64,000 nucleotides of DNA. Origin: Tillus elongatus. Its lineage: Eukaryota > Arthropoda > Insecta > Coleoptera > Cleridae. The stretch spans positions 138,914,173 through 138,978,172 of the forward strand of contig OZ023263.1 in assembly GCA_964006375.1 (NCBI GenBank), in the 5' to 3' direction. Every line of letters starts with the position of its first letter. Position 1 is the first letter of the stretch. A program made the translations under genes and the position numbers. This document shows, piece after piece, positions 20,208 to 61,865 of the stretch. Under the pieces are notes generated by a model, which saw nothing but the letters and a program-made list of their open reading frames with translations, had not been told where the DNA came from and did no database searches.

Positions 20208-21593
20208 TTAAGACTGTTCGTCCCGAACAGTATTTACCGGCCGCCAACTTGGGGGTTCGTTGCCTCGATAGGGACTCAACCTCTCTATGTGAACAACTTT
20301 GGGTTTAGTTCTTGGAGACATCTGGATTCTGTAGACTAGGTCGTTAATTTTCTTAGTCACCAAGTATGGCCCTTCCCATGGTTTCTGAAGTTTGGGACTA
20401 AGGCCCTTTCTCCTTGTTGGTTGGTACAGCCACACTGCATCACCTTCCTTGAATGTATGGGGTGTTGCTCTGCGATCCAAGCGCATCTTCATCCGGTCGC
20501 TGCTTAAGAGGAGCCTATCTCTGACACATCTGTGTATAGTGCGCAGTTTTCCTTCTAGGTCGGCGACATACTCAGGTAACGTAGCTAAGTCCGCTATGTC
20601 CTCGTTCGGTGGTGGTCTTGTCATGTCGATTGGTAACCGCATCTCTCTGCCGGTCAACATCATGAATGGAGTGTAGCCGGTAGATTCATGCTGAGAGCTT
20701 CTGTAAGCTAGGAGGAACAGAGGTATCAGCTTGTCCCAGTTTCTATGATTCTCATCGACAAACATAGCAAGATACTGGTTTATGGTCCTGTTATGCCGTT
20801 CTACCATGCCGTCTGATTGGGGGTGGAGTGGTGTTGTTCGTGTTTTCTTTATGCCTAGCAAGTCCATTAGGCTCTTCCAGACTTCTGATTCGAAATTCCG
20901 GCCCTGGTCGGTGTGAATCTCCAAGGGTACGCCATGCCGCGTTATGACATTTTCCAACAGGGCTTCTGCTACGGTCGTTGCCTCTTGGTTGGGGATCGGC
21001 GTAACTTCAGGCCATTTCGAGAAGTAGTCCATCGCCACCATTATGTATCTGTTCCCAAACTCTGTGATGGGAAAAGGTCCTGCGATGTCTACGGCAACTC
21101 TCTCCCACGGTGTACCTGAGATGTACTGCATCATTTTTCCTCTGGATCGGGTCTTTGGTCCTTTCTTTGAAGCACATTGGTCACACCTTTTGCACCATTC
21201 TTCCACGCTTCTTCGGCAGTTTATCCAATAGAAGCGGTCTCTGACTCTGGCGAGAGTCCTGTTGACCCCAAAGTGGCCTCCACTCCTACTATTGTGTAAC
21301 TCCTGAAGAACACTGTCTATGCACTCACTTGGCACAACGGTCTGGTATATACAGTCTCTACCATCGGCAGTTTCCCATTTTCGAGTGATCAAGTCATTCT
21401 TTAGACACAAAGAGTCCCATTGTAGCCAGTAGCCTTTAACCTCCGCCCCAAACCGGGACACATCGTGCCACTCAGGTCTTTTCCCCTTTTGTAGCCATTC
21501 TCTAATATTTTTCAATTTTGGATCTATCTTCTGTGCGTCTCTGATGTATTCAAGATTTACGTCTAGATCGGTGTTATTCTCCTGTTCTGTCAC
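20208..21593 (-). pseudogene. Gypsy integrase (C-terminal part of pol)
   Basis: 461 open codons. The zinc-binding HHCC region includes H100, H107, C137 and C140. The catalytic triad is D169 (VAVDIAGPF), D229 (IHTDQG) and E265 (DGMVERHNRT), with the usual 35-residue D-E spacing. The chromatin/GPY-F-like tail reads KPWEGPYLVTKKINDLVYRI. It is in the same frame as the upstream polymerase but separated from it by one stop codon at 21662-21660, so it is probably not made as part of a full pol polyprotein in this copy. Confidence 0.93.
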
Positions 21594-21659
21594 CAGTTGT
21601 TTGATCTGATGAGTTACTTTGTCGATCTCCTTGTTCTCTTGTCGCTCGCAAAATTTACA

Positions 21660-23825
21660 TTAATGCACTGAACATGGTCTTCTTGACAGGCTGTCTGCAT
21701 TGGCGTGACTTCTTCCTCTTCGATGTTCAATCCGGAAGTCGTAGCTCTGTAGTTTCTCTATCCATCGGGCTATCTGCCCTTCGGGATTTCTAAAGTTCAG
21801 AAGCCATTGCAGAGCAGAGTGATCCGACCTCACGCGGAATGTTCTTCCATACAGGAAGCTGTGGAAATGTTCGATGGATCTTACCACTGCCAGCAGTTCT
21901 TTCCGGGTTACACAGTAATTTCTTTCTGCTTTTTCGAACGTTTTGCTGAAGTAGCCTATCACAACTTCTTCTCCGGCTTGGAGCTGCGAGAGTACTGCCC
22001 CAATGCCATACTGGGAAGCATCGGTGTCCAGTATGAACAGTCCTTCTTCCTGAGGATACGCAAGTATAGGAGCAGTGAGAAGACGATGTTTGAGTTCTCT
22101 GAAAGACTCTTGGCAATCTGGTGACCAGATGAACTCGGCCTTATTTTCAGTCAGGCTATGCAGAGGTTTCGCAATGCTGCTGAAGTACTTCACAAAGCGT
22201 CGGTAGTAGCTGCAAAGTCCCAGAAAACTTCTGACCTCGTGTTTGTTCTTCGGCACAGGCCAGTCTCTTACTGCCTTTATTTTATCTGGATCGGTTTCTA
22301 TTCCCTCCTCAGAAACGACATGTCCGAGGAAACTAACTTTCTTCTGGAAGAGGGCGCATTTCTTGGGATTGAGTTGCAGATTGGCACCTCTCAGCCTGGA
22401 GAAAACCTGCTTCAGATTCGACAGGTGTTCATCGAAAGTCCTTCCAATCACCATGACATCGTCGAGATACACCAGGCATGTTTCCCATGTCAGTCCCCTC
22501 AGCACTAACTCCATTAGTCGTTCGAAGGTGGCAGGGGCATTACACAAGCCGAATGGCATGACCTTGAATTGGAACAACCCATTCTCGGTTGAAAAAGCAG
22601 TCTTCTCCTTATCGTCTTTATGGAGTTCTACTTGCCAGTAGCCACTTTTCAGGTCTAATGTAGAGAACCACTTTGATCCGGCCAAAGTGTTCAAAGTGTC
22701 GTCGATCCGGGGCAGGGGATAACTGTCTTTCTTGGTGACATCATTCAGCTTCCTATAGTCCACGCAAAATCTCATAGTGCCGTCTTTCTTGGTGACCAAA
22801 ACTACTGGGGACGACCAAGGGCTATTAGACTCCTCGATCACACCATCTTTCAGCATTTCGTTAACCATCGCCTTGATTTCTGATTGTTTGGTAAAAGGCA
22901 GTCTTCTCGGCGGCTGTCTAATTGGTCTTGCGTCGCCAGTATTAATTCTGTGTTGCACTAGACTCGTACGACCTGTGATTTTATCTTGAGCGAAAATATC
23001 GGCCTCCTCCAATATGAACTTGAGGGCCATTTCCATCTCCATGTCGTTCAATTGGCCCCAAGAATTCTTGAACCGCTCTACCATTTCTACTGGCAGTCTT
23101 CTGTCTAATGCAGTGGGTGTCACGTTTCTTGACAACGTCACTCGGTCAATGGGCTCGCAAGTGGCGATAACCTCACCTTTCTTCAATGTGACCCTGTTAG
23201 TTTGCACGTTAGCCACTCTTATGGGTATTGTCCTCTTCGGGTCTACTATGCATCGTGCGACGAGGGCACCATCATGTCTATCTTTTAGGGGCTCCGCTAT
23301 GAGAGCAGACATACCATCAAGTTTCTTCTCTAGTCTGGCTCTGACAATCTTCTCACTGTTACAAGGAATCCGTGTATCCTCGTCGACAATAAGTCTCACC
23401 CTGGGATTAGCTTCGCCTGCTGTTGGAGATAAATACAACTCTTCGTTGCCGATTTTCAAGATCTTATTCTGGAAGTCTACTGACAGGACATCGAACTCTT
23501 CCATTAAATCCAGGCCCAGAATAAATCCGTCGACGATTTCTGCGACGACAGCCCTTACCTGTAGCTCAGTACTGCCCAGCCTAATGTAAACAGTGGCCTC
23601 TCCATGCACAGGTATCCTATCTCCTTTTGCCGTCTCCAACACAGGCTGTTTGTTGGTCGTGAGTGCCGACCTGTTTGGCAACATGTCTGGACGTACAACG
23701 GATCTAGTGGCACCAGTATCGATGGTGAAACTGCATTGTCTTCCGTCTATGCTGCCAGGTATAACGAGGTCTCGCGGTAGCGTCGGATAGTAGAGACCCT
23801 GGCCTTGGGGCCTTGTGTCTCGCAT
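21660..23825 (-). CDS. Gypsy protease, reverse transcriptase and RNase H
   Basis: About 720 residues. Protease DTG is at ~36-38 (FTIDTGATRSVV). The RT region is ~300-500, with FCVDYRKLN, LDLKSGYWQ and the catalytic YLDD (453-456), followed by the LGH and FLGLCSYYRRF connection motifs. RNase H D600 (LDTDASQYGIGAVL) is followed by RKELLAVV and RSDHSALQWLL, ending NADSLSRRPC. All catalytic residues are intact. The reading frame ends at a TAA just after the RNase H domain, where other elements continue into integrase. The first codon is not a clear start; a gag-pol frameshift is expected. Confidence 0.93.
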   Translation of the reverse strand: MRDTRPQGQGLYYPTLPRDLVIPGSIDGRQCSFTIDTGATRSVVRPDMLPNRSALTTNKQPVLETAKGDRIPVHGEATVYIRLGSTELQVRAVVAEIVDGFILGLDLMEEFDVLSVDFQNKILKIGNEELYLSPTAGEANPRVRLIVDEDTRIPCNSEKIVRARLEKKLDGMSALIAEPLKDRHDGALVARCIVDPKRTIPIRVANVQTNRVTLKKGEVIATCEPIDRVTLSRNVTPTALDRRLPVEMVERFKNSWGQLNDMEMEMALKFILEEADIFAQDKITGRTSLVQHRINTGDARPIRQPPRRLPFTKQSEIKAMVNEMLKDGVIEESNSPWSSPVVLVTKKDGTMRFCVDYRKLNDVTKKDSYPLPRIDDTLNTLAGSKWFSTLDLKSGYWQVELHKDDKEKTAFSTENGLFQFKVMPFGLCNAPATFERLMELVLRGLTWETCLVYLDDVMVIGRTFDEHLSNLKQVFSRLRGANLQLNPKKCALFQKKVSFLGHVVSEEGIETDPDKIKAVRDWPVPKNKHEVRSFLGLCSYYRRFVKYFSSIAKPLHSLTENKAEFIWSPDCQESFRELKHRLLTAPILAYPQEEGLFILDTDASQYGIGAVLSQLQAGEEVVIGYFSKTFEKAERNYCVTRKELLAVVRSIEHFHSFLYGRTFRVRSDHSALQWLLNFRNPEGQIARWIEKLQSYDFRIEHRRGRSHANADSLSRRPCSVH

Positions 23826-25255
23826 GCCACGTGTCGCCCACCTACACTGGCGTCAGGTCGTTTTCCCTGATGGCGCTCCCTGTTGGTGTATTCTTGTCTT
23901 CTGCGAGCCACCTGTTGGGTTTGTGAGCACTGCCTACTTATGTGCCCTTTTCCTACCACACTTGTAACATTCTATATCTGACCAATCTGCTTTCGTCTTA
24001 CGTGCTCCAACCGTTGCAGTGAGCTTGCTTATGGCTTCCTTCATCAACTTCATTTCTTGTCTTAGTTCCGCTGTCGTGTCTGCAAAGTCCTCTATCTCCT
24101 TAACTTCGCGCAGCCTGTTGCGGCGAGGTTGAGATGCATTCTTCGCTGCTTCAAATTCCAAGCCATAAATTACACAGTCTGTAAGTGTTGTGAACCTTCC
24201 GAGCCTTAAAGCTTGTTGCATTTCATTGTCAAGTACCCCATCGATGAAGGTCTGGACGGTGATCTGGTTGACAAATTCTTCTGGGGCTTGGGGATATGCC
24301 AGTCGTACAAGTTTCTCCACTTCGGCACTAAATTCTTGCAGAGTCTCATTTGGCTTCTGGACCCTTGTCTTTAGTTGTGTCTGGTAGACCTGGCTCATGT
24401 ACTTGTTACCATATCTCAAATCTAGGGCCTGTATTACTGTTAAATAGTTTTGCTGTTCGACTCCGGGATGTTCTGGAGGATTTCTAGGGCTTTACCTCGA
24501 AGCGAGAGGATTAGAGCAGTTGCTGCCTGTTGTTCGCTCCACCCATTACTGAGAGCTGCCGCCTCAAACTGCCTCCTGTACATGGGCCACGATGTTTCTC
24601 CGTCAAAAGTCGGCGGCTTTAAGGTTCCATGAAGCTGCTGCACGGCTGGTATATCTTCTTCTAAGCGATTTTGGACTGGGGACATTCCAGTAACTCCTCT
24701 TGGTTGAGTTCTATCAGTCTGGCCAATCAACTGTTCTGTCAGTTCTTTACGTGTGATTTCTGTGCCTTTCATGATCATCTTCATTTGTTCTTTCAACCCT
24801 TCAACTTCTTTCCATCGTTTGTTCCAATCCTCTGTTGCATTTTCTACTTTACTGTTCACCACTCCTATTGTATTTTCCACATCTTCTACTTTCTTGTCCA
24901 CATTTTCTACTTTCTTGTCCACTTTTTCTACTTTCTTGTCCACATTTTCTATTTGTTCGTTGATCTGTTCAATTTCTTCTTTTACATCGACTCTCATATT
25001 GTGGAACAGACTTCGGAGGTCTTCTTTGTCTTCTTCGCGTTGCTTCTTGAGTTCTTCTTTATCTTCAAGACGCCTCTGTTTCTCCTCTTGTCGTCTTCTC
25101 TCGCCTTCTTCGCGTTGCTTCTTGAGGTCTTCTTTGTCTTCTTGTCGCCGTCGTTCGTCTTCTTCGCGCCGTCTTCTTTCTTATTCTTGTCGTCGTTGTT
25201 CGTCTTCTTCTCGTTGTCTTTTCAGTAAATCCATAAACTCTTTGATTTCAGCCAT
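23747..25255 (-). pseudogene. Gypsy gag, broken by one stop and two frameshifts
   Basis: It starts at an ATG (25255-25253, MAEIKEFMDLL), followed by a stop at codon 25 (25183-25181). It continues through a Glu/Arg/Gln-rich region and a coiled coil of repeated KKVENVDKKVE units (about 24940-24870). The capsid domain follows (KPPTFDGETSWPMYRRQFEA, then ALILSLRGKALEIL). One frameshift falls at 24440-24420. A second falls inside the CCHC zinc knuckle near 23955 (CYKCGRK then GHISRQC in another frame). The knuckle identifies it as nucleocapsid. Confidence 0.88.
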
Positions 25256-25348: not shown

Positions 25349-26775
<1,427 letters not shown>

Positions 26776-29133: not shown

Positions 29134-29159
29134 ATTTTAAGATAATGTAAGGCTAGATG

Positions 29160-29243
29160 TATTCTCACCATAATTAGAACCGCAGACCGGTTTCGCTCTA
29201 ATTAGAGCTCATCAGTACGGTATACCAATTACAGCGAGAACAC
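29160..29243 (-). ncRNA. Type I hammerhead ribozyme, intact (array unit 1)
   Basis: On the minus strand: stem I ACCGTA (29221-29216), CTGATGA (29215-29209), stem II GCTCT-AATT-AGAGC (29208-29195), GAA, stem III ACC/GGT (29191-29186), cleavage-site C (29185) and stem I TGCGGT (29184-29179). All six stem I pairs form (one G-U). Outer stem I can extend with TTCTCGCTGTAATT against AATTATGGTGAGAA. Every conserved core base is present. The loopless 3-bp stem III suggests dimeric action. Cleavage is predicted between 29185 and 29184. Confidence 0.88.
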
Positions 29244-29469
29244 GCCTATAAAGTAATACGGCTGTGGTAGCCAGCCTCCTAGAACATTGTGAGATGTACG
29301 ACAGGGTCGCAATCTCGGTACGGAACCAGGTAGTATGTTGTCAAGATAGCTCCAAATAACACAAAATATTATAAAATAGAGAGTATGTACAACCAACTAA
29401 CAATTTTGTAAATTGTCAGCCCTAGACCATTTATTCTTTTATATTGGGACAATGTATGTAAGGCTAGAT

Positions 29470-29540
29470 ATATTCTCACCATAATTAGAATCCCAGACCG
29501 GTTTCGCTCTAATTAGAGCTCGGTATACCAATTACAGCGA
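29470..29540 (-). pseudogene. Hammerhead ribozyme with its core deleted (array unit 2)
   Basis: The flanks match unit 1 (CCGGTTTCGCTCTAATTAGA, then GCTC joined directly to CGGTATACC). Seven bases covering most of CTGATGA and its junction are missing. Catalysis is not possible. Confidence 0.85.
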
Positions 29541-29673
29541 GAACACACACATAAAGTAATACGGCTAGTAATACATATTACCTGGTTCCGCACCGAGATG
29601 GCGATCCTGTCCTACATCTCACAATTTTCTAGGAGGCTGGCTACCATCATAGATGTATTATTTTATAGGTGTG

Positions 29674-30193
29674 CGGCCAGCCTTGACCTATGCATCACCT
29701 GAAGGGGCCACCGCGGCCGCAACACACATCAAGACCCTTCAAACCATCCAGAACAAAATTCTGAGAATGGTTACCGGAGCGCCATGGTTTGTCCGAAACA
29801 GTCAGATTCACTCTGATCGGGAAATGCCTTCGATACTTGAGTTTATAACTCAACTATCGACAAGTCAGTTCGCAAAAGCCGCTTCTCGCCCAAATGCTCT
29901 TCTCCGTAGTGCCACCGACTACGACGAGCAACTTCCACATAAGCATAAGCGTCCAAAGCTTATACTTACCCGCTAACGCCCCCGCGGCAAAAACAGAATG
30001 GAAACATTCATACCCAAAAAGTTATTGTGTGAAATCTCTCCGACGGAGGTATGGACTAGGGTCCGGTACTACCAGGGAGGGTGTTTTAGTGAGTACAGTC
30101 TCACAGTACCTCGATATCCCACAGCACCTACGGGGCCGTGAATGGGGTCTGCATGAGCATTTCCCCCTCCTGTATCCAAAAAAAAAGAAAAAA
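29674..30193 (+). mobile_element. 5'-truncated jockey-type LINE insertion
   Basis: Only the end of ORF2 remains: RPALTYASP, IKTLQTIQNKILRMVTGAPW, FVRNSQIH and DYDEQLPHKHKRPKLILTR, then a stop at ~29976. This is the C-terminal region of jockey-clade ORF2 proteins (IQNKILRMxxxAPWFVRN). A 3' UTR and an A-rich tail (30178-30193) follow. The 7-bp target-site duplication AGGTGTG lies at 29667-29673 and 30194-30200. It sits inside a ribozyme repeat unit. Confidence 0.9.
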
Positions 30194-30200
30194 AGGTGTG

Positions 30201-30283
30201 TTCTCACTGTAATTGGTATACCGTACTGATGAGCTCTAATTAGAGCGAAACCGGTAGCTGGTTCTAATTATGGTGAGAATACA
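30201..30283 (+). ncRNA. Hammerhead ribozyme copy (array unit 3), weakened stem I
   Basis: CTGATGA (30226-30232), stem II 30233-30246, GAA and ACCGGT (30250-30255) are intact and the cleavage-site base is A. Stem I is ACCGTA against GCTGGT, where only the outer pairs remain, so activity is doubtful. Confidence 0.8.
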
Positions 30284-30510
30284 TCTAACTTTACATACAT
30301 TGTCGCTATATTACGGAAGAAATGGACCAGGGCTGAAAATTTACAAAATTGTTAGTTGGTTGTACACAGTCTCTATTTTATAATATTTTGTGTTATTTGG
30401 AGCTGTCGTGACAACATACTACCTGGTTCCGCACAGAGATGGCAACCCTGTGGTACATCTCAAAATGTTCTAGGGGGCTGGCTACCATAGCCGTATTACT
30501 TTATAGGTGT

Positions 30511-30594
30511 GTTCTCGCTGTAGTTGGTATACCGTACTGATGAGCTCTAATTAGAGCGAAACTGGTGTGCGGTGCTAATTATGGTGAGAATACA
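30511..30594 (+). ncRNA. Hammerhead ribozyme copy (array unit 4), G at the cleavage site
   Basis: CTGATGA (30537-30543), stem II 30544-30557, GAA, ACTGGT and perfect stem I pairing ACCGTA/TGCGGT are present. The cleavage-site base (30567) is G, the one base hammerheads do not accept, so this copy should be inactive. Confidence 0.8.
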
Positions 30595-30794
30595 TTTAGC
30601 CTTACATACATTGTCCCTATATTAGGGAAGAAACGGGCCAGGGCTGATAATTTACAAAATTGTTAGTTGGTCGTACACAGTCTATATTTTATAACATTTT
30701 GTGTTATTTGGAGCTGTCGTGACCATATACCACCTGCTTCCGCACCGAGATGGCGACCCTGTCGTACATCTCACAATGTTCTATTTTAAGATAA

Positions 30795-40530: not shown

Positions 40531-40666
40531 TTTACTTCCACAACTTGCTACTGGTTCACTAAATTGTAGGTGGTCAAATTCATTAAAATATACTAGCCCT
40601 GAAAATAAAAACATTTGGTAATATATACAATTCGCTTTCATTTTTTCAATATTTCGTTATTTTTAG

Positions 40667-40934
40667 GTCATTTTTGGATCAGTTACGTCAGGCAGAATTT
40701 GATCCATCTCGGATAGCGAATGTGTTTTTGCAGAATGACTCTGGATTCTCAGTTTATAATGAGTATTGCACAAACTATCCACGGACCATGGATGTCTTGA
40801 GTCAACTGACAACAGATGAGAAAACAGCCTCATTATTTAGAGAAAGGCAAATGGCCTTGAGACATGCATTACCGCTTGGTTCATATTTACTCAAACCTGT
40901 CCAGAGGATATTGAAGTATCATCTTCTCCTACAG
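40667..40934 (+). CDS. PLEKHG-type RhoGEF, internal exon B (DH domain core)
   Basis: The exon lies between the acceptor TTTTTAG and the donor GTAAAT. It encodes SFLDQLRQAEFDPSRIANVF, then VYNEYCTNYP, FRERQMALRHALPLGSY and finally LLKPVQRILKYHLLLQ. The LLKPVQRI-KYHLLL stretch is the diagnostic conserved region 3 of DH domains. NEYCTNYP and FRERQ are specific to the PLEKHG1/2/3 group. It begins with one base completing a split lysine codon and ends exactly on a codon boundary (phase 0). This fits the next exon at 45146, which also starts in phase 0. No frameshift or stop is seen, so the gene looks functional. Confidence 0.92.
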
Positions 40935-42059
40935 GTAAATATCATTTTTCACTTATGTGCTAATTGATAGTTCAAGAAAAGTGCATGTATGAGAGATAGT
41001 ACTTTGTTTTTATTATATATTATTTTATCTTTAAATACGAATCATAAGATGCTTATTGATTTAAGCAAACGGGGTGCTATAAGCTACGAAAAACAAATTT
41101 CACATATATTTGCTTCAGGAAGAGAAAATTCTAGTATTAACGGAATATTTTTCTATAAGATAGTTTATGGAAGACAAAGCCTGTGTGCCTCTTAGCTATC
41201 TTATAATATAGTGAGGTTCATATGATATCAACCTTGTAAAATTATTACTATAAGAAATTACTGCTTCTTTAAAATAAATATCTATATTGTGTAATTCTAT
41301 TTTATGCATTTAAGATTACCGTTAAAAAACTAGAGAACACTTATATTTATTTGCAACTTAATTGAGCATTAAGTAATACATACCTAATGCACAATAAGCC
41401 AAAGGCTGCAGTGCTTTCGGGGCGGCGAAGTCGCGGACTAGCCCCGAGGTAAAAAAATACATATCTACATAGGTTTTCTATTAACCCAGTACATGAAAAT
41501 GTATACTACACTGTGTTTAATAATATTAGTATAATTAGTGGAAAATTTTACGCCTTAAAATTTATATAAATCATTAATAATTATCGTCTTTGTAATCTAA
41601 GTATTACCTTTATCTTATATTTATGCGAATCTAAATAGTTCCATAAAAGACAACGAGGTTTAGATACCTACTTATAACAATAATTTCTATAGTTGACATC
41701 TTTTTTTAACAATACAGCAAAAATATAACAACATGCATGGAAAATTTTCACCTGCAACACGGAAAGAGGTTTTTGACGTTGGTGATAGATGTATACTGAC
41801 TTTGCAAAAAATCCAAACACCCAGTAAGAGTCGACCAATTGCAATGACTTGTTATATACTACTCTGTTTTGTCTATGATAATAAATAATAACAATATGGA
41901 CAAACAGTTTTAACAGGTGTACACTTTTTTTATTTTGTTTTATCAAAAATTATCTCTTTAAATTTGCGTTTCCTTAAGTTTGAAGCAATATTTAGTAGTG
42001 ATTTGTACTCAGTTTATTAAGTAATTAAGTCATTACGCCTATATGCCGTTTACAGAACA
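40935..42059 (+). other. RhoGEF intron; one GC-rich spot
   Basis: Mostly AT-rich with no gene. A GC-rich stretch at ~41410-41448 (CGGGGCGGCGAAGTCGCGGA, then GCCCCG) can form a small hairpin. Confidence 0.5.
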
Positions 42060-42841: not shown

Positions 42842-43677
42842 CATTTAATTCATTTATCAATCACATTTGTTTAAAGTTTTTGGTAGCTTATCTTTAATCA
42901 TCATCATAAGCACTATTACCCACCTGGGCCTTAAGTAACCCAAGTTTAATTCACACAGTTCAATTGCCAGCCACCACTTTTGTTGTTATCACTTAGTTTC
43001 CACTATTCATTCTCCACCAATTCAACTTAGCCTTGGTGTACCGTTGGTTCTCATACCCATGTCGTGTACCGCAAAGGCTTCTTTAGCTTCATATTCACAT
43101 ATTTTTTACATATTCAACCCATGCTGGTTATTTTGCTGTAATATAAGATACACTGTTTGGTCATTATAAATTTGGCTAAATATTTTATGATGTGCCTTTT
43201 TTAGTTGTTTTTTTAGCCATCTAACCCTATGCACTGCTTCATATAATTGTATATAGGCATGACTCATAGGGACATTGTGATTTGACAACACTATCTATAT
43301 TGTCTGCATTATAATCTGTGAGGTTTTATTGGAGAGGGTACCTTTTAGACTAAACTAATTGTTTCTTACAATTAAGTGAAATAGTAGGCATGAATGAGTG
43401 TACCCTAAGACATATGTTTCTGTTGAAATATATTCTGCATTTCACAATAACTGTCTACACCGAAAAATTTGGTTGGTAGTTAATCTTTCTCGTTGAAACC
43501 TACAAAAGTGTTGACTTAAGCGGTTTCTAATTGGCATGATGTGACATTTAGATCTTTGTGATACGTTGAAGAAACTATGTTGTATTATATATTTTGTTTA
43601 TTATGTTTTTAAATAGAGAGTTTTGGGGCAGTATAAGAACCATGTGATCACAAAATAATTTCAACAAAAAAATTGTG
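42839..43677 (+). other. RhoGEF intron, nothing recognised
   Basis: No gene or known repeat is identified. Confidence 0.5.
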
Positions 43678-43975
43678 GGTGGATGGACGGATGGACGTAC
43701 GGACGGACGGAGGGATGGATGGATGGACGGACGGAGGGACGGACGGACGGATGGATGGATGGATGTATGCATGTGCCAATTTTGATCAAATTTTCTGAGT
43801 ACCTCCCTTTTGCAAGTGGCTTGGATAAGTTCGTTAGCCGGGAAAATCGGCCCAGGTTTTCCCCGAAAATCGGCCCAGGTTTCCCCGAAAATCGGCCCAG
43901 GTTTTCCCCGAAAATCGGCCCCGGTTTTCCCCAAAAGTTTTGTTTTCTTTTGAAAAAAAAAATTATATCTCACAA
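43678..43975 (+). repeat. GGAC/GGAT microsatellite joined to a TA-element right arm with tandem 23-bp repeats
   Basis: (GGAY)n at 43678-43765 takes the place usually held by (TA)n. It is followed by a right arm in which AAAATCGGCCCAGGTTTYCC is repeated four times (about 43846-43935). Confidence 0.75.
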
Positions 43976-44380
43976 GTCTCTATTTTTTAACACTTGTGTT
44001 ATTTGGAGCTGGCGTGACAACATACTACTTGGTTTCGCAACTAGGTGGCGAAACGCTTACCACTCACTTAGTGTTGAAAGGCTGGCTACTTTAGCCGTAT
44101 TACTTTATATGTGTATTTTCGCTGCAATTAGTATGCCATACTGACGAGCTCTAATGAGAGCGAAACCGGTCTATGGTTCTAATTGTTGTGAGAATGCATC
44201 TAGCCTTACATACTTTGTCCCTATATTAGGGTAGAAATGGGCCAGGGCTGACAATTTATTAAATTGTTAGCTGGTTGTATACAGTCTCTATTTTTTAACA
44301 CTGTGTTATTTGGACCTGGCGTGACAACATACTACTTGGTTCCGCAACTAGGTGGCGACACGCTCACCACTCAGTGCATA
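43976..44380 (+). mobile_element. Second locus of the ~310-bp hammerhead repeat
   Basis: A partial unit (43976-44110), the ribozyme block, and the start of a second unit ending at ~44378 without its ribozyme. It shares TTATTTGGAGCTGGCGTGAC and GGGCCAGGGCTGACAATTTA with the array at 29146. Divergence from that array is clearly higher than within it. Confidence 0.8.
44113..44197 (+). ncRNA. Type I hammerhead ribozyme with compensatory stem changes
   Basis: Stem I GCCATA (44135-44140), core CTGACGA (44141-44147; the changed base is at the variable seventh core position), stem II GCTCT-AATG-AGAGC (44148-44161), GAA, stem III ACCGGT (44165-44170), cleavage-site C (44171) and stem I TATGGT (44172-44177). 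All six stem I pairs form. Against the copy at 29160, a G-C pair has become A-U through changes on both strands. This is good evidence for past selection on structure. All obligatory core bases are present. Confidence 0.87.
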
Positions 44381-45145
44381 CTGTGTGTTATCAGTCAGAT
44401 TATTACAGAAAGATACAAAAGTTTGTCATTTAGTACCTTTCTGCAATAAACTGATCATTTTGATACTACATTTTATGTATTTAGAATTATGGAGGCTGAT
44501 TCCTTTCAACACCAAACGATTAGTGAGTATTTAAACTTTGAGATGTAAGCATAACCCGCCTGTGTTGAAATAAGTTGGTTAATCCCTTTCTAAAATAAAC
44601 GATTCTTGTTGTTCTTATTTTCCCTATTGATACAGTTAAAATATATTATTTCGTTACCTTATTTTGAGTTTGTACTGATATATCAATGTATTATTAATGG
44701 CATAATTTTTTGTTTTACCTTAAAACTATAAAATGAGTATGGACATGAAAGTTAATATAATATTTTTTTTAAAATAAAACCAATAAAAACCTAATAGAAT
44801 GCCGCCTATGCGATTGAGCATGCCCAAGTAAATGGAAATCAAAGCATTTGAAGTTAAAGATATCCAATTTTATATAATGAATAATAATTCTGAGACTATT
44901 TTTCCAATGCATTTATAGAAAATTTCAGCTCACACAAATTTGTTTTGTTTTGCATTCAAAGACATGTGTCATTTTCCATGGTGAATTCGCTACAATCATT
45001 TAGGCCGAATAGATGAATTTGTTGTAAACACCTTAGAACTATTTTGAGTAATTAGTGCATGTATTTGAATCACCACGGCATAATATCTGTTAATGATTAT
45101 TTATTAATAATATTAAGATTAATTGAATTGTATTTACAATTGCAG
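44381..45145 (+). other. RhoGEF intron, nothing recognised
   Basis: It ends in the branch/pyrimidine region of the exon C acceptor. Confidence 0.55.
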
Positions 45146-45457
45146 CGCCTAGCCAAGCAGTGTGAGCCTTGTCACAAACCAGCAGTGGCTCTAGCTTTGA
45201 CTACCATGACGGGTGTAGCTTGTGGAATCAACAATATGAAGATGAAACATGAGCATGCAGTGCGTGTTCAGGAGATACAGTCACAATTATATGGATGGAC
45301 AGGACCAGATCTTACAGCACTTGGTGAGCTGATAGCCGAGGGCACTTTTAGGATGAGTGGTGCTAGGGGCAGAAGGCATGTGTTTCTCTTTGATAAGGTT
45401 CTTCTCATAGCCAAAAGCAAGCAGGAGAATGGGGTGGCATATAAGTCACATATCATG
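45146..45457 (+). CDS. PLEKHG-type RhoGEF, internal exon C (end of DH, start of PH)
   Basis: This is 104 codons in phase 0, between the acceptor TTGCAG and the donor GTGAGT. It starts RLAKQCEP and includes INNMKMKHEHAVRVQEIQS, the DH-PH linker helix typical of PLEKHG proteins (a KRKHEHAVRLQEIQ-like motif). The pleckstrin-homology (PH) domain then starts: GELIAEGTFRM, followed by RGRRHVFLFDKVLLIAKSK. The FLFDKxLL core is the classic PH beta-strand of Dbl-family GEFs. PH domains of this family bind phosphoinositides or stabilise the GTPase-bound DH domain. Confidence 0.92.
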
Positions 45458-46503
45458 GTGAGTTACAGATCGTTTAAATCTTTATAAATATTTGCCGCAG
45501 ATTTAATTCAAAACTCTGTAACCCTTTCATCATAGCAACTATAAGTGAAAATAAGTTAATCTATTTCAATTTGACTATATGCCCCTAGTGAGTTGATTTG
45601 AAAATTACAGGATTGACTTATATGTTTAATATATTCAGAGCCTAATATCAACTTTCAAATGTAATTGTTACCTATTTCTTACTTTGTTAAAAGTGGGCAT
45701 ATTGTCGCCAAAAATGCTATAGGCTAAACAGTTATAGATGCTATTAAGACAACGAAAAGTCTATATTCAGGGTCCTTATTTAAAAACTAATTGAACAGAG
45801 GTGTTTACAAAGGAATATATTTAGACATATATAGTTAAACTTTTTAAGGTTGCCTTAATCAATAAGTTTCAGTTTAACATTGTGAATGTGTGACTATAAT
45901 TTGGACAAAAATAAGGCAGGAGTTTGCACAATAAAATACATATATGTACTTATATTACTTATGTTAAATGTAACATTATATGTGATTGTACGTATACATT
46001 ATGTATCATTTGTAGGTACATATTTACAGATGAACAGGGAAAAAATGTATATAATTGTGTTATTTTCTATAATTTTTTATTTTTCGATTTTATTTTCGTT
46101 CTTAACTATTCTCAATTTTTTCACTTTTCTGGTTTATAAAAGATTTAATCGTTACATTTATAAACTTTTCGAAAAATAACTTACAACATTTATTGGTGAC
46201 AATTCCATATATTTTTCTTAATATTGGAATTAATATAACTTGTACCTTGATTTATAATATTTACACTTTTAAAGAAAATCTTCCATGCACTTTTTAAAAT
46301 TTTATTAATTTATCAGTTGCTTCGTTAGGCATTTCTTTGAAAAAATACAAAAATGAGTACTCCATAAAGTTTTTCAGTTCATATGAATGTCTCATACAGC
46401 ATTACAATGATGTTTGTGTGCAGTGGTTTGCACACCTCGCTTAACATGAAATACATAACATTCAACCTTTTTGACTAAATTAGTATTATTGACATCGAGA
46501 ATA
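45458..46503 (+). other. RhoGEF intron, nothing recognised
   Basis: AT-rich. Small open frames with long hydrophobic stretches (e.g. 45886-46179) reflect composition, not a gene. Confidence 0.55.
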
Positions 46504-46509
46504 TTAAAA

Positions 46510-47122
46510 AAGTCTGGACGCAGCAAGTGCGTTATGGTAGTGAATTTTCATAGAAATGATCTGGCACAAAATATTTTATTATAACTTTTTTTTTCTGTAA
46601 CATAGAACTCTTAATTTTGGTGTAGGGTTTACTTTTTATATCGTAAACCTACCTACCAAATTTGGTTATCATAGATTATTTATTTCTTAAGATAAAAAAA
46701 TTTTTCAAATGAAAACTCAAAATTTTACCGGAAAACGTCGTCCGATTTTTTTGATTAACGAACTTGTCAAAGCCATTTACAAAAGGAAGGTACATGCCAA
46801 ATTTTATCAAAATCGACTTATTATTCTTTGAGATAAAATTTTTTTTCGAATGAAAACTCAACATTTTCCCGGAAAACCTCTTCAGATTTTTCTGACTAAC
46901 AAACCTGTCAAAGCCATTTACAAAGGGAAGGTACATGCCAAATTTTATTAAAATCGGCTTATTACTTTTTGAGATAAGAATTTTTTTTGAATGAAAACTC
47001 AAAATTTTCCCGGAAAACCTCGTCCGATTTTCCTGACTAACGAACTTATCCAAGCCATTTACAAAAGAAACGTACATGCCAAATTTTATCAAAATCGGCC
47101 CATTATTTTTTGAGTTATCGGT

Positions 47123-47189
<67 letters not shown>

Positions 47190-47326
47190 ACATATAAAAA
47201 TTGAAACTGACCTCGGATATGGGTTCTAGGGGTCCTAGATCGCGCTCATTTGAAGAAATTTTTTCAAAATTCAAAAGTCGAGATCTCCTCATTAGTGAAT
47301 TTTTTCTAAGAAAATTCACTAAAAGC
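46510..47326 (-). repeat. TA-element copy 11, complete
   Basis: The cleanest full copy (~820 bp) on the minus strand. The left-end hairpin AGTGAATTTTCTTAGAAAAA...TTCACT (47326-47296) and the left arm lead into (TA)n (47127-47183). A right arm of three tandem ~135-bp units follows (47126-46690), then the right end CACTACCATAACGCACTTGC TGCGTCC (46540-46512). The 11-bp AGTGAATTTTC is inverted at the two ends (sub-terminal inverted repeats). With the internal microsatellite and terminal hairpin this resembles Helentron-associated (HINE/DINE-1) elements; the class is inference. Confidence 0.75.
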
Positions 47327-50141: not shown

Positions 50142-53100
50142 TCAACACAAACCGATTGATTGATTAATAATTTTCATTTTTGGACCAGATAGAGCTTTAG
50201 TAAATAAATCTGCTTTGTTCTGACAAGATGTTACATACTCAAATTTCACTTTCCCCAAATCTACTGCTTCCCTTACACAATGATACTTTGCTTTGAAATG
50301 TTTATTTTTCTTTGTAACGATGTCACTTATAGAATTTGCTATAGCACTTTGGTTATCTGCATAAATGATCACTGGTTCACTCAAAAAGGTCTCTTGGTCT
50401 ATTTCCATGAAAAAATTAATTAACCATTCGTATTCACAAACTGCTTCATGCATAGCAACATATTCTGACTGAGATGTGGATGTTGATACTGATGTCTGCT
50501 TCTGGCTGGTCCATCCAACAGCCCCACTTGCAAAGATTATCACTTTGCCTGAAACTGATCTAGCTTTTTCATCATCGCCGGCAAAATCTGCATCACAATA
50601 TATTTTCAAATCTTGGTCAGTTTTCTGATACTTCAAAACTAGTTTTCTAGTCTTCTTTAAATATTTAAAAATATGTTTCACCTCCATCCAATGATGTGTA
50701 GTTGGTCTTTCACAATATCTAGATACTTTACCTACAGCAAAGGCAATGTCTGGTCGTGTTCCATTGGCCAAATATAGTAAAGAACCAACTGCCTTCCGGT
50801 ACAACTTTTGATCACATAGTGTATCATCTGAAGGTTCGGAGGAGATGACTCCCAAAGGTAAAGGGGTAGGTTTACCAATGCAATTCTCCATTCCAAATTC
50901 TCTCAGTATCTCATCTATATAGTGTATCTGATCTATAGTCAATACATCCCTGTTCGGCCTAGTAATGTGCAAGGATAATAACATATGAGCTGCTCCCAAA
51001 AATTTCACCTGTAATTTATTGGATAAAATCTCTTTAAAAAAATTAATGTCTTCTTTCATGCCAAAAACCACAATATCATCAACATAAACAGCTAATATCA
51101 GGGTTTGACTAACATAGACGCATGGGTCAGACAATAATCTTCTAAAGTTCAGCTGTATGAGGATATTACTGAGGCATTTGTACCACTGACTTGCTGATTG
51201 TGGTAAACCATACACACTTTTGTTTAGTCTACAAACATGTTCATCTGGTTGACTCCTGTTTAATTCATAACCAGGTGGCTGCTGCATATAAATGATGTCA
51301 TTCAAATCACTATTTAAATAAGCTGATACGACATCAACTTGTTCTACATCCCAGGAATATTCACATGCTAATGCTAGTAAGATTCTAAGTGAATGCTTCC
51401 TGACTACTGGACTATCAATTTTATCGGAAAAATCTATACCTGCTACAAGATTAAAACCTCTTGCCACGAGTCTTGCTTTATGTTTCAGGATCTGTCCATC
51501 ATTATCCCTCTTTAATTTAAATACCCATTTTGCACTAACTATGTTTTCTTCTACAGGTCGCTTCACTACTTCCCAAACATTGTTTCGTTTCATATTTGCT
51601 ATTTCCTCATCCATAGCCCTCTTCCATTCCTTGCTGTCCTTACTTGCTAAGGCTTCTTCCCTGTTCTTTGGCTCAATAGCTTCATTAGCATAGTAGGGAC
51701 CTGCAACAATTGTATGACAACATATACAACCTTTAGGTGGTTTTCTGTTTCGACTGCTCCTTCCACTGGCTATACTTGGCTCTTCAACATCTGTCTCATT
51801 GTATGTTACATCTGAGTGGGAATTCAGTTCCATTCTGGCCTGCACTTGTGCTGGTTTACCTGGTATATTTTGCATAATTGCTTCTGCCCCTTCATGCCCT
51901 TGGTAAAGTTGCTCGTGCTGAACCTCCCCTGAAGCCATGGTTATGGTGACCTCATCCTTTTCACCTTCTCCAGTGTCTTCTCTTAAAAACACAGAACTCG
52001 GTATCTCTAATTTCATTGGAAAGACCTCTTCTTGGAATCTGACATCTCTTCTGTTAATAATAATTTTTCTATCCAGACTCCACAGTCTATATCCTTTAAC
52101 ATTGTCAGGATAACCAAGCAATACACATTTCTCTGCTTTGTTCCCAAATTTAGAGCGACCTATTGATAGACACCAGGTTAAGCATCCAAACACTCTCAAA
52201 TAATTCAAATCTCTTGGCTCCAGCTTCCTCTTGTTCCACAGTTCAAAAGGTATTTGGTGTCCTATTGAAGCGGATGGGCATAGATTTCTAGTTTTTACTG
52301 CAGTTGAAAGTGGTTCTGCCCAAAAACGTTTATCCAGTCCAGATTGTATTAACATACATCGAACCATAGTTTCTAACGTGTAGTTTTGTCGCTCTGCACG
52401 TCCATTCTGAGAAGGAGAATTTGGACATGATTTTCGATGTTTTATATTACATATATTTAGATGTTCCTCAAACCCTTTGCTGCAATACTCTCCACCATTG
52501 TCAGTTTGAAGTTCTTTAATATTTAATTGATGATGCAATTCAGCCTTACCCTGGTATTTGCAAAATTCTGGAAACACATCACTTTTTCTCTCAATAGGTA
52601 TGGCGGTCACATAATTTGTCTGTTCGTCTAAAAAGGTAACAAAGTAATTTGCATTACCATAAGATGTTAAAAATGGTCCCGCTACATCAGAATGTATTCT
52701 TTCCAACGGTTCTGTTGCTTGCTGGTGTTGTTTCTCAGGAAATGCCTTCTTCTTGATTTTTGCACGAATACATACTTCACAATCTTTTACTCCTTCATTA
52801 CTCCTGGGTACATCTTCTAGTGGTGGAATTTTCTCTAAAGCATTGTTGTGCAAATGCCCAAATCTTTCATGCCAGGTTCGAATTGAAACATTTGCAGTCT
52901 TCTCTTCCTTGTAAAACATTGGTAAATTTGAGTCTTCGGTAAATAAATGATAAACTCTTCCGATTCTGTGAGCAGTAAACATAATTTCGTTATTTCTTAT
53001 GAGAGATAATCTCCCATTACTGCCTCTAACGCTCAGACCCTTTTCTTCCAGAGTGCCCAGTGATATGAGATTATCTTTGAGTGTAGGAACAAATAAAACA

Positions 53101-54224
53101 TTTGTGAACTTAATTCTCTGCCCTCCACATTCATCTGACAGATTCAAAGTAACTGAACCAATACCTCTCACCTGTACATAGATTCCATCTGCTACATGTG
53201 CTTTGTCTTTTATAACTTGAAAATCTTCAATAATATCTCTTTGGTAAGTCATGTGATCTGATGCTCCTGAATCAACTAACCAAGAGTGAGCCTGCTCTCC
53301 ATTTCTAATAATATTCAATATCTGGATTGGTTTTTCTGCACATGTGGTTGTAACAGCTGATACTTGTCTGTCCTCTCTGCGATCCTGATCATTATTTTTC
53401 TCTCTCTCCTTATATTCGTGTTGGTTAAATCTTCTTAGTTCTTTGTGGTTCCTTTCTGCTTCAAACCTTGGACAATTTGCAGAAATGTGTCCTTTTTCTC
53501 TACAGGCGAAGCAAATCACGAACTTTGTATTTTTGTTACTGCTATTATTAATACTTCCTTGGCTGTATTTACTTTGGTGTGTTACTTTCATAGCAGCTAT
53601 TTTCTCTTCAACTTCGTCTTCACCGTTTCTTATTCTCCTTTCTTCAATAAGTAATTTTGACTTTACTGTTGCCACGGATAATGACAGGTGTTCATCATCC
53701 ACCAACCTATCTAAACTGCGAACCAAGCCTTCAAATTTTGGTAGTGGCAATCCAGCTAGCATAATGGCGGCAATTGTCTTGTCGTTAAATTCAAATCCCG
53801 CCTTTTTAATTTTTCTCTCCATCATTTGGATTTTATTTATATAATTTAAAACTGTTGTGTGCTCATCTAGCCTAATATTGATCAACTCCTTGAACATATG
53901 GACCGTATTGAAAAGGCCAAAACTGGATGTTAATTCCTCCAATTTATGGTAGGCTTCGTTTGCATTTGTCAAGTCACCGATGTCGGACAGGAACATGGTG
54001 GACACGGATTTAAGTATATAGCACATTGCTGTTTGGTTAATTTTATTACGTCTTCTAAGTTCTGCCGCATCGGGCACAAAATCGTCCTCATCGTTGTAAC
54101 CTTCAATACCTTCGTAAGCGTCTCTTAACATAAGGTTTGCCTTCAGCTCAATCGACCATTCATAAAAATTGTCCATCGTCAATTTTTTCATGCGAACGAC
54201 TTCCTCGTTCATTATATCGGCCAT
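50142..54224 (-). CDS. Copia gag-pol polyprotein (1360 aa)
   Basis: Starts at ATG 54224. Gag (UBN2-type) occupies residues ~1-230 and the CCHC zinc knuckle is C238-C251 (CFACREKGHISANC). Protease DSG is 318-320 (WLVDSGASDHM). Integrase: zinc-binding H452, H457, C482, C485; catalytic D513, D575, E611 (35-residue spacing). RT starts near 880 (NNVWEVVKRP, KARLVARGF) with catalytic YVDD at 1047-1050. RNase H: D1211 (YCDADFAGD), E1254 (STSQSEYVAM), D1290 (IIYADNQSA). All catalytic residues are present and no stop interrupts the frame. The domain order PR-IN-RT-RH defines Ty1/copia. Confidence 0.97.
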   Translation of the reverse strand: MADIMNEEVVRMKKLTMDNFYEWSIELKANLMLRDAYEGIEGYNDEDDFVPDAAELRRRNKINQTAMCYILKSVSTMFLSDIGDLTNANEAYHKLEELTSSFGLFNTVHMFKELINIRLDEHTTVLNYINKIQMMERKIKKAGFEFNDKTIAAIMLAGLPLPKFEGLVRSLDRLVDDEHLSLSVATVKSKLLIEERRIRNGEDEVEEKIAAMKVTHQSKYSQGSINNSSNKNTKFVICFACREKGHISANCPRFEAERNHKELRRFNQHEYKEREKNNDQDRREDRQVSAVTTTCAEKPIQILNIIRNGEQAHSWLVDSGASDHMTYQRDIIEDFQVIKDKAHVADGIYVQVRGIGSVTLNLSDECGGQRIKFTNVLFVPTLKDNLISLGTLEEKGLSVRGSNGRLSLIRNNEIMFTAHRIGRVYHLFTEDSNLPMFYKEEKTANVSIRTWHERFGHLHNNALEKIPPLEDVPRSNEGVKDCEVCIRAKIKKKAFPEKQHQQATEPLERIHSDVAGPFLTSYGNANYFVTFLDEQTNYVTAIPIERKSDVFPEFCKYQGKAELHHQLNIKELQTDNGGEYCSKGFEEHLNICNIKHRKSCPNSPSQNGRAERQNYTLETMVRCMLIQSGLDKRFWAEPLSTAVKTRNLCPSASIGHQIPFELWNKRKLEPRDLNYLRVFGCLTWCLSIGRSKFGNKAEKCVLLGYPDNVKGYRLWSLDRKIIINRRDVRFQEEVFPMKLEIPSSVFLREDTGEGEKDEVTITMASGEVQHEQLYQGHEGAEAIMQNIPGKPAQVQARMELNSHSDVTYNETDVEEPSIASGRSSRNRKPPKGCICCHTIVAGPYYANEAIEPKNREEALASKDSKEWKRAMDEEIANMKRNNVWEVVKRPVEENIVSAKWVFKLKRDNDGQILKHKARLVARGFNLVAGIDFSDKIDSPVVRKHSLRILLALACEYSWDVEQVDVVSAYLNSDLNDIIYMQQPPGYELNRSQPDEHVCRLNKSVYGLPQSASQWYKCLSNILIQLNFRRLLSDPCVYVSQTLILAVYVDDIVVFGMKEDINFFKEILSNKLQVKFLGAAHMLLSLHITRPNRDVLTIDQIHYIDEILREFGMENCIGKPTPLPLGVISSEPSDDTLCDQKLYRKAVGSLLYLANGTRPDIAFAVGKVSRYCERPTTHHWMEVKHIFKYLKKTRKLVLKYQKTDQDLKIYCDADFAGDDEKARSVSGKVIIFASGAVGWTSQKQTSVSTSTSQSEYVAMHEAVCEYEWLINFFMEIDQETFLSEPVIIYADNQSAIANSISDIVTKKNKHFKAKYHCVREAVDLGKVKFEYVTSCQNKADLFTKALSGPKMKIINQSIGLC

Positions 54225-54345
54225 TTTAGAATAAGAAAATGAACTTCCGCTACAACGTCTGTTATTCTATTATGTTAGTACACTTCATGCACTTGATACT
54301 ACCCGCAAATTGTATTACATAAAGCGCCTAAGTCTCATAATCTGT

Positions 54346-59089: not shown

Positions 59090-61035
59090 TAGTTCAAGCA
59101 AATATCCAAAAAAACTGACGGCTTCTGCGATAGACTGGACTTTACATTACACCAATATTAATTTTCTGTTAGCCAAGTTTGATGTGTTTTAAATTTTTGT
59201 TCAGACATATCAGCCAGCTTGTATGTTTCTAGCGGAAACACGGCTGTCTTCTTCTGTACTAGACAGCCTAATTGCGGTACCAGATTATTCAGTTTACCGC
59301 ATATACATAAGGGATGCCGTTTGTGAGGATTTCCGGATTCAGACTGTCCCTTTTAGCAGTCCCGGCTGCGAATGCATTGCAATGAATCTGTCTTCTTCGA
59401 CGCTGTCATTCACTGTTGCTTGTGTTTACAGACCTTTCCCTCGACCAAAGGTCCATCTTGACAGGCCACTATTTCATGCTGTGGGCCATCTCGCAGAACT
59501 TCATCATAATCTGGTGCTGGTCGGTGACTTTAACATGCCCTATGTCACTTGGCCAGTTTGATGCGTCATCCCAACCACTTATCGAAGCAATGGAGAAGGG
59601 AGGCCTCGTACAGCATGTATCTTGCAACACCAGATTTAGAGTAAATCAACATCCGTCCCTCCTCGACCTTTCATTTACCAATGCCAGCGAACGTATTACC
59701 GCTGCCAAATACTTGCCACCATTCACAAAATCGGACCATTGTGTGTTGTCCTTCACCCTACAAGCTGTAACTCGGCCACCTAACACCCGAAACAACCTCA
59801 AAATTCTTAAAGTCGTTGACTATGAGCAGTTAAGTCAAGCACTTTCTTTGCTAGATTGGGATGGCATCCTAAGTGGCCTCTAGGTGAGCGAGCAATGGAA
59901 CTATCTTTATCTGGTTTTATTTGATAATATCGATAAGTATTCTCATAGCAGAGTCATTAAAGTTAACCTCACTAAGCCCTGGATAACAAAATCCCTTTCA
60001 GAATTAATCCGTAGAAAGTATTTGACCGAGTACCTTTGAGGTGCCTTTGTGCAAAGCTGCCATCTTGCGGAATTGGTGGAGATCTGCTTTTGTGGATTAG
60101 AGCTTTCCTGCGTAACCGAACTTTTCGTGTACGCATGAATGGTGCATATTCTGCTCCTCGACCTGTGGTGAGTGGTGTTCCCCAAGGCTCAGTCCTCGGG
60201 CTCCTGCTGTTCTTGGTATACACCAACGATCTCCCACTGATTATCAGGTCTGAATGTGCTTCTTTTGCAGACGACATCAAGTTATACAACGACCCACTCG
60301 TTTATCACAGTGATATCAAGGAAGCCCTGCTTAAGCTGGATGATTGGTGCAAGTCATGGTTGCTTTCCCTGAACGCGTCAAAGTGTTCAGTGTTGCACAT
60401 TGGCAGAAACAATCCCAAAATACCATACTACATTACTGGAACTCAGGGTGCAACAGTTAATCAACAGTCATCGTTACTGAAGACTTGAACTGGTCTGCAC
60501 ATGTGTCCAGTATCTGTTCCAAAGCAAATCGTATCCTGTACATGATCCGTAAGTTTTTTCACCATATTAACCCTCAGTGTGCTACACTTGTGTACACTAC
60601 ATACATTAGACCTCTAATGGAGTATTGTGGGCCAGCCTGGTACCCAGATCTATCAAGAGACAATGACTGACTGGAAAGAGTGCAGTGAGCAGCAAGTCGA
60701 CTACTTTATGGCATTCTTAAGCCTAGCTATGAGGTTAGGTTACAAATCTGGGACATGACATCATTTGCTGAGACATGAACGAGGTGACCTGATTTTCACG
60801 TATCGTGTCTTACATGGCCTCACAGGAATACCGTTGGATAGCCTGTTTACTCGGAATTCAGACAGTCATCTCCGTTGGCATGAATACAAACTTTCCAGAG
60901 AGGCGTTCAGTGTTCGTTGTCGACAGAACTTTCTTCCAAATCGAGTGTTTGGCAGTTGAAACAGTCTGCCTTCTTCAGTAGTGAGCGCATCATCTGTGAA
61001 TATCTTTAAAAGACAATATGACCTAATGTGACTTT
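59090..61035 (+). pseudogene. CR1/jockey-group LINE ORF2, internally deleted
   Basis: Endonuclease: FLAETRLSSSVLDSLI, VACVYRPFP, LVGDFNMPYVTW and FTKSDHCVLSFTL (DFN and SDH active-site motifs). After about 59990 the frame jumps from SLSELIRRK straight to the RT middle (FDRVPLRCL), so the RT fingers are deleted. Then SGVPQGSVLGLLLFLVYTND and the catalytic ASFADDIKLY (~60260-60290), LNWSAHVSSICSKANRILYM, YIRPLMEYCGPAWYPD and the C-terminal FSVRCRQNFLPNRVFGS. It ends near 61030. Several frameshifts and stops; inactive. Confidence 0.88.
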
Positions 61036-61144
61036 CGTATTCGAAAGTTTTGTTTGTGTTTGTAAGTTTAGTAATTTTTCTGATTTGTGCTATGTTCTGG
61101 TTGTGCGCATCTAGCCATTGCAAACACGGACTCTATAGGATTTA

Positions 61145-61575
<431 letters not shown>

Positions 61576-61865
61576 ATTTCCATATTTTAAATGATGGTAA
61601 ACAGAGAATAGTTGCTCTTTTGTTTTGTGTCGTTTTGAGCTGTTTTTTTGTGCTTGATTTTGCTGATTTTTTCTGCAGTGCTTGTGTGTGAGACACTGTT
61701 GGTTGTGCTGCATGTTATTTTGCATGTACTAGTTGACAAACTACCAGAAATTTGTGGTTTTCTATTGAGGTTTGGACAAGAGCTGAATAAAAACTTATCT
61801 AGTGATAGAGATAAGGATTCCAACAGTTGATTGTTTTTGGTTGTTAGTAATATACACTGCCTACC

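Follow-up and report, generated by a model that had tools for sequence, protein, structure and literature searches.

Metazoan retrozymes are described as repeats with units of ~170–400 nt that carry type I hammerheads, are bounded by target-site duplications (TSDs) of more than 4 bp and give rise to abundant circular RNAs (PMC7229834). The same source presents Penelope-like elements (PLEs) as a strong candidate for their helper, on the grounds of co-occurrence and shared features. For Nematostella, TSDs of 15 bp are given (PMC4918200). PLE insertions mix direct and inverted pseudo-LTRs (pLTRs), mostly head-to-head, with palindromes at the junctions and TSDs of 8–10 bp (PMC3846280). With a purified PLE enzyme, the two strands of an AT-rich target were both extended, from a start site that lies within its RNA and is the same for each strand (PMC11167929).

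The locus described here lies in a window of 64 kb (the whole stretch of DNA that was analysed). Direct reading and a repeat search of this window establish a real array at 29146–30781, composed of units of ~311 bp in two orientations (Table 1). A minus-strand arm of 1.4 units stands head-to-head with a plus-strand arm of 2.2 units (689 nt in total, 29573–29673 plus 30194–30781); within each arm the units follow one another head-to-tail. The core recurrence reported by an earlier sequence-only reading, CTGATGA-GCTCTAATTAGAGC-GAAA-ACCGGT, was found again by both approaches, at 311-bp spacing and in opposite orientations. That reading had also remarked that the inverted layout departs from the usual head-to-tail tandem, and the two arms, which are 91% complementary across 377 nt in the repeat search, bear this out. 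The GC content of the units is 38.5–41.7% in three stretches vs 34.3% for the window. A repeat does bracket the array as had been noted, but it measures 13 bp and not 12 bp. This 13-mer occurs twice in the window, at the two edges of the array, and nowhere else in it; as a yardstick, 66 of 62,300 window positions have an identical 13-mer of whatever kind at this distance.

Table 1. Coordinates of the array, its hammerheads and the second family copy in the 64-kb window.
Feature	Position	Strand	Basis
TSD, left copy, 13 bp, TATTTTAAGATAA	29133–29145	.	exact match to 30782–30794
Minus-strand arm, 422 nt, ~1.4 units	29146–29567	-	inverted-repeat and blastn matches to plus arm; unit alignment
Hammerhead M1: core, stem I, stem II and palindromic ACCGGT intact; predicted cut after 29185 (C17)	29157–29241	-	
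Hammerhead M2: 8-nt deletion takes most of CTGATGA; dead	29468–29544	-	per-site check
Head-to-head junction: filler GTAAT (29568–29572) and interrupted palindrome GTAATA-CA-TATTAC (6-bp arms, 2-nt centre)	29568–29581	.	
Plus-strand arm, first part, 101 nt	29573–29673	+	repeat search, unit alignment
Later insertion of a 5'-truncated non-LTR retrotransposon, 520 bp (BS/Jockey-like RT C-terminus, then A-rich tail)	29674–30193	+	protein match, flanking repeats
Plus-strand arm, second part, 588 nt, 1.9 units	30194–30781	+	repeat search, unit alignment
Hammerhead P1: core intact, two mismatches at stem I base	30200–30284	+	per-site check
Hammerhead P2: core and stem I intact, G at position 17	30511–30595	+	per-site check
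TSD, right copy, 13 bp, TATTTTAAGATAA	30782–30794	.	exact match to left copy
Second family copy, 1.3 units, direct	43975–44374	+	blastn 43975–44359, 81% identity, E 1.2e-101; extended by eye to ~44374
Second-copy hammerhead, structurally intact (CTGACGA core), predicted cut after 44171	44115–44199	+	per-site check, HH9, descriptor

The earlier reading overlooked a 520-bp LINE fragment inside the plus arm of the array. The 100-codon frame of this fragment is 43% identical (E 1.1e-11) to a protein named putative RNA-directed DNA polymerase from transposon BS, a member of the Jockey clade, and also matches one further, unnamed protein (E 1.5e-6); a Pfam search with the 100-aa frame gave no match. 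AGGTGTG flanks the fragment at 29667–29673 and 30194–30200 (the first A may be part of the tail), and the flanks restore an unbroken unit when joined. Based on the A-rich tail, the repeat on both sides and the unbroken joined unit, the LINE is a later, 5'-truncated insertion. Elsewhere in the window, an uninterrupted 1374-aa copia-type polyprotein frame (50142–54266, minus strand) carries domains for gag and RT, together with an integrase core that falls slightly short of the Pfam cut-off; being uninterrupted, it is possibly a recent insertion. Gypsy-like frames occupy 20208–25180 (minus strand), with Pfam matches to protease, RT and RNase H domains in 21660–23852 and integrase-like and gag-like frames, as judged by eye, beside it. 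A second, broken non-LTR retrotransposon (59193–62552, plus strand) comprises an endonuclease-like frame (below the Pfam cut-off), an RT frame and a 233-aa cysteine-rich frame that has no Pfam match. By eye, a diverged protein-like repeat motif recurs in several frames (43659–44144, 46676–47245 and 25959–26486), some of which carry long (IY)n runs from TA microsatellites.

The claim that every unit holds a canonical hammerhead does not survive inspection of the individual sites. Only one of the four array ribozymes (M1) is structurally intact, or two out of five when the second locus is included; M2, P1 and P2 each have a defect. The cleavage predicted at 29185/29184 agrees with the alignment of the hammerhead copies. 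Stem I is intact in M1 and P2 but not in P1. It has an inner helix of 6 bp, separated by an internal loop from an outer one of at least 15 bp, and a loop 2 is present as well. Likewise, ACCGGT is self-complementary as proposed, but cannot close on itself as a 3-bp stem III without a loop. Instead, helix III is either a single A-U pair topped by a palindromic CCGG tetraloop, in a hammerhead by itself, or a 6-bp helix between two molecules or units. As it stands now, the locus would give a minus-strand RNA with one structurally intact and one dead ribozyme and a plus-strand RNA with two ribozymes that, judged from their bases, should not cleave. Since neither strand has two intact hammerheads, release of unit-length RNA from the array locus is not expected. 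A read-through transcript from either strand would contain the 377-nt arms, which are able to pair. The array is what remains of an insertion and is decaying.

Several computations bear on the hammerhead signal. Our own strict type I descriptor (core CTGANGA, three outer stem II pairs, GAA, a helix III opened by A and closed by T with a second pair, no G at position 17 and a stem I of at least 5 bp) has exactly two matches in the window, at 29215 on the minus strand (M1) and at 44141 on the plus strand (second copy). The same descriptor matches nothing in 200 random 64-kb windows generated with a first-order Markov model. With the Rfam covariance models, there is no match in the window at the gathering threshold, but Hammerhead_HH9 (gathering threshold 52 bits) finds all five sites below it. 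The four array sites score 34.6, 26.9, 26.2 and 18.2 bits with, in the same order, E-values of 2.6e-6, 7.5e-4, 1.3e-3 and 0.5, and the second-copy site scores 30.0 bits (E 2.9e-5). E is below 0.002 at four of these five sites; the fifth and lowest is the deleted M2, which is at chance level. A covariance model built from the five hammerhead segments recovers the same five places, as well as, more weakly, those five on the opposite strand, and nothing further in the window up to E 1. Pairing is kept in 96.9% of 127 pair cells over the five copies, compared to 35–47% with the partners slid by 1–3 columns. Two pairs, both in stem I and both in the second locus, are changed on both sides. Against shuffle controls this pairing signal is weak, as 52 of 500 shuffles reach values as high for four of five measures, and for the remaining one, which counts pair types, 247 of 500 do so. 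Folded as a circle, the unit RNA is predicted to be more stable than its dinucleotide shuffles (100 each) in three units (z -5.0, -4.0 and -4.6). The predicted minimum-energy fold coincides with the active fold in none of the four hammerhead segments tested. In all four copies tested, the computed dimeric active form is 4–10 kcal/mol better than two monomeric active forms, and 7–16 kcal/mol worse than two minimum-energy monomers.

A blastn search of the array against the window places the family at two loci in the 64 kb. The second copy is a direct one, and no clear duplication was found around it. Its hammerhead carries a C at position 7 of the core, where substitutions are tolerated, and a single mismatch in outer stem I. 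The copy lies between a RhoGEF-domain frame (40587–40967) and a PH-domain frame (45056–45487) identified with Pfam. As all of these are on the plus strand, the second copy is probably located in an intron of a PLEKHG-like gene. The PH-domain frame has 48 protein matches, most of them without an organism; those that name one are from Ixodes, Timema, Stegodyphus and one fish, which points to an arthropod-like host. Just downstream of the copy, a ~60-nt hairpin (44393–44454, minus strand) may be a small inverted-repeat element; its Rfam matches are weak and far under the gathering threshold (MIR7993, E 0.029; rox1, E 0.042). The earlier assignment to a retrozyme-like family is upheld by the unit size, the type I hammerhead, a GC content of 38–42%, the long TSD, the second copy and the highly self-paired unit RNA. 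The ~311-bp units fall within the range of about 150–450 bp, in at least a dimer, that marks metazoan non-LTR retrozymes, and their GC content is under the 45–50% limit for these.

The units within the array are 88–90% identical in the long comparisons (P1–P2, 250/277; P1–M2, 271/303; P2–M2, 237/269) and 80–81% identical to the second copy's longer unit. The second copy then served as outgroup; after dropping the columns in which its two units disagree or in which fewer than three array copies are present, 42 private changes stand against seven mixed columns, in three of which more than one copy shares the same derived base. The mostly private changes, a star pattern, indicate one insertion from one template, followed by separate decay. 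An inverted structure could in principle be a fold-back chimera of the assembly, yet copies in opposite arms differ by 6–12%, mostly through private changes, the LINE is found in one arm alone and the flanks carry the TSD, which makes such an artefact hardly credible.

The outer ends were placed in unit coordinates in which phase 1 corresponds to 30194 and the hammerhead cut falls after phase 63. The right end of the array lies at phase 277–279 and the left end at 102, ~175 nt apart. The 3' end of the second copy is near phase 268, ~10 nt from the right end of the array, so both are ~205–215 nt from the cut; by itself, the closeness of these two 3' ends is weak evidence. No insertion end coincides with the ribozyme cut. 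This is what one would expect had copying started within a circle or multimer. One fixed start site for both strands is not supported, given the ~175 nt between the outer ends. Microhomology of unit and target is short at the outer ends, 1 nt on the left and 2 nt on the right, a point against the account that we favour below. A hairpin (30747–30772; 44351–44368) is situated 5–9 nt before the 3' ends of both insertions; it folds in four of six stretches tried, those of P1 and of the first unit of the second copy being the exceptions, and is a possible reverse-transcriptase recognition site. Long inverted arms within a duplication are also what a foldback or other cut-and-paste DNA transposon would show if its long terminal inverted repeats happened to contain the unit. 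Here, however, the outer ends are not mutual inverted repeats (phase ~102 on the left vs ~277 on the right), and a TSD of 13 bp is long for transposons of these kinds; we regard this origin as very improbable.

The last bases of the minus arm before the inner junction are CGGCTA; next come a 5-nt filler, which repeats a stretch 12 nt upstream, and then the plus arm. A simple fold-back, in which one arm is copied from the other, was rejected, as the arms diverge in phase at the junction (the minus arm starts near 295 and the plus arm at 221). The junction palindrome is not very rare as a chance feature: of 8834 positions sampled outside long (AT)n tracts, 167 (1.9%) have within 3 nt a palindrome with arms as long and a loop of at most 4 nt. 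A second duplication was sought at this junction and none was found apart from the 5-nt filler repeat. The view that the units were inserted as a head-to-head multimer is strengthened by these results, with two arms in one outer 13-bp TSD and no second duplication between them. The inverted order could otherwise have arisen from a head-to-tail insertion whose left segment was inverted later, or from two insertions that met at one site. Turning the minus arm round does give a head-to-tail order with a gap of 118 nt in unit phase, but the inversion would require a breakpoint exactly at the TSD, and two insertions would be expected to leave a duplication of their own at the inner junction. We consider this pair of origins improbable.

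The account that we favour, with fair though far from full confidence, is that of a non-autonomous metazoan non-LTR retrozyme that entered by a single target-primed insertion with an inverted second arm, most likely with a Penelope-like helper, and whose copies decayed independently and later received a LINE. We infer the following course for its RNA-level steps and priming. A multimeric transcript of ~311-nt units would have cut itself at its type I hammerheads, which probably worked in pairs because helix III is a palindrome, and the resulting unit RNA, possibly circularised, would then have been the template of a borrowed reverse transcriptase working by target priming. This enzyme would have begun inside the unit sequence rather than at the hammerhead cut, and from one nicked strand of the AT-rich target it would have made a copy of roughly two units. 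Some 1.4 units would have been copied in the opposite sense, either from a second start on the other strand or through a template jump at the growing end. Both cDNAs would have been joined at the short interrupted palindrome with its filler, leaving one 13-bp duplication around two arms. The copies would subsequently have decayed independently, and a LINE landed in one of them. A Penelope-like element appears the likeliest source of the enzyme. A PLE enzyme with the same start site on both strands would be expected to yield equal phases at the outer ends, hence the observed ~102 vs ~277 counts against a plain PLE model. The inverted layout is known from one locus (n = 1), the second locus being direct. 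The more specific proposal that the array records how a Penelope-type enzyme inserted a retrozyme, reverse transcribing one RNA on both strands of the target and uniting the products head-to-head through a self-priming palindrome, is put forward tentatively, as an idea that may well be wrong. If it holds and this genome contains further arrays of the kind, the helper of animal retrozymes could be put to a direct test. Insertion architecture is a line of evidence on the enzyme behind animal retrozymes that does not depend on co-occurrence, and the locus pairs an inverted layout of PLE type with a long duplication and with ends that lie apart from the ribozyme cut.

Among the known systems, the metazoan non-LTR retrozymes of Cervera and de la Pena (2020; PMC7229834) resemble the array in their low-GC multimeric units of ~300 bp, type I hammerhead, TSD of more than 4 bp and highly self-paired unit RNA, and arthropods and insects are named among their hosts. 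They differ in that they form direct arrays, whereas the present one is head-to-head. Moreover, the one-pair palindromic helix III of the array is described in that paper for amphibians rather than for invertebrates. In the literature searched, no description of a head-to-head retrozyme was found, including passages of PMC11722881, PMC4918200 and PMC7761336, and no head-to-head array in passages of PMC8490949, PMC2837043 and PMC3088659. The hammerhead core pattern and a looser one had no matches in viral contigs, and two patterns had 0 and 4 matches, respectively, in genome contigs. The four are bacterial and no more than expected by chance for 18 fixed bases in 257 Gb. As the collections searched are viral, bacterial and archaeal, the absence of matches says little about animals.

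In LINE-1 twin-primed inversions, a single TSD encloses a 5' part that is inverted relative to the 3' part and separated from it by a gap. The array shares the inverted part in one TSD with a gap, but lacks a poly(A) tail and has a repeat unit rather than a LINE as its template. The pDo500 satellite of Dolichopoda cave crickets, compared by its description in PMC2837043, is likewise an insect repeat with a hammerhead and compensatory stem changes. Unlike the array, it is a satellite, and its helix III is described as pairing within one molecule even as a dimer.

PLEs with inverted pLTRs, in the insertions described, share with the array inverted and direct repeats in one TSD, a head-to-head order, a junction palindrome, an AT-rich target and ends away from the hammerhead cut (PMC3846280; PMC11167929). 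This likeness gives rise to the main rival explanation, in which the units are themselves the pLTRs of a Penelope-like element and the array is an insertion of such an element devoid of its ORF. The arrangement of inverted and direct repeats in one TSD is the layout stated for PLEs (PMC3846280), and PLE pLTRs carry type I hammerheads that are said to be able to cleave as dimers (PMC7761336), to which the short palindromic helix III of the array hammerheads would correspond. Nonetheless, PLE hammerheads are characterised in that source as minimal, without helix III or loop–loop contacts, while in the array stem I comprises 6 bp, an internal loop and at least 15 bp, and helix III alone is minimal. 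An ORF for RT and GIY-YIG is absent between the arms, where the LINE fragment alone is found, and no PLE frame was recognised by eye in the 38 window frames with a length of 120 aa or more (with Pfam run on nine chosen frames), a weak negative. Taken together, we judge the pLTR explanation unlikely and prefer that of a retrozyme moved by a borrowed enzyme. The array further departs from the PLEs described in its lack of coding sequence, its fuller hammerhead, its outer ends at two unit phases and its TSD of 13 bp vs 8–10 bp (PMC3846280). Animal retrozymes are already known, and the head-to-head layout, which was not found described for them, matches by analogy that of Penelope-like insertions: the layout of this array is PLE-like and its unit is retrozyme-like.
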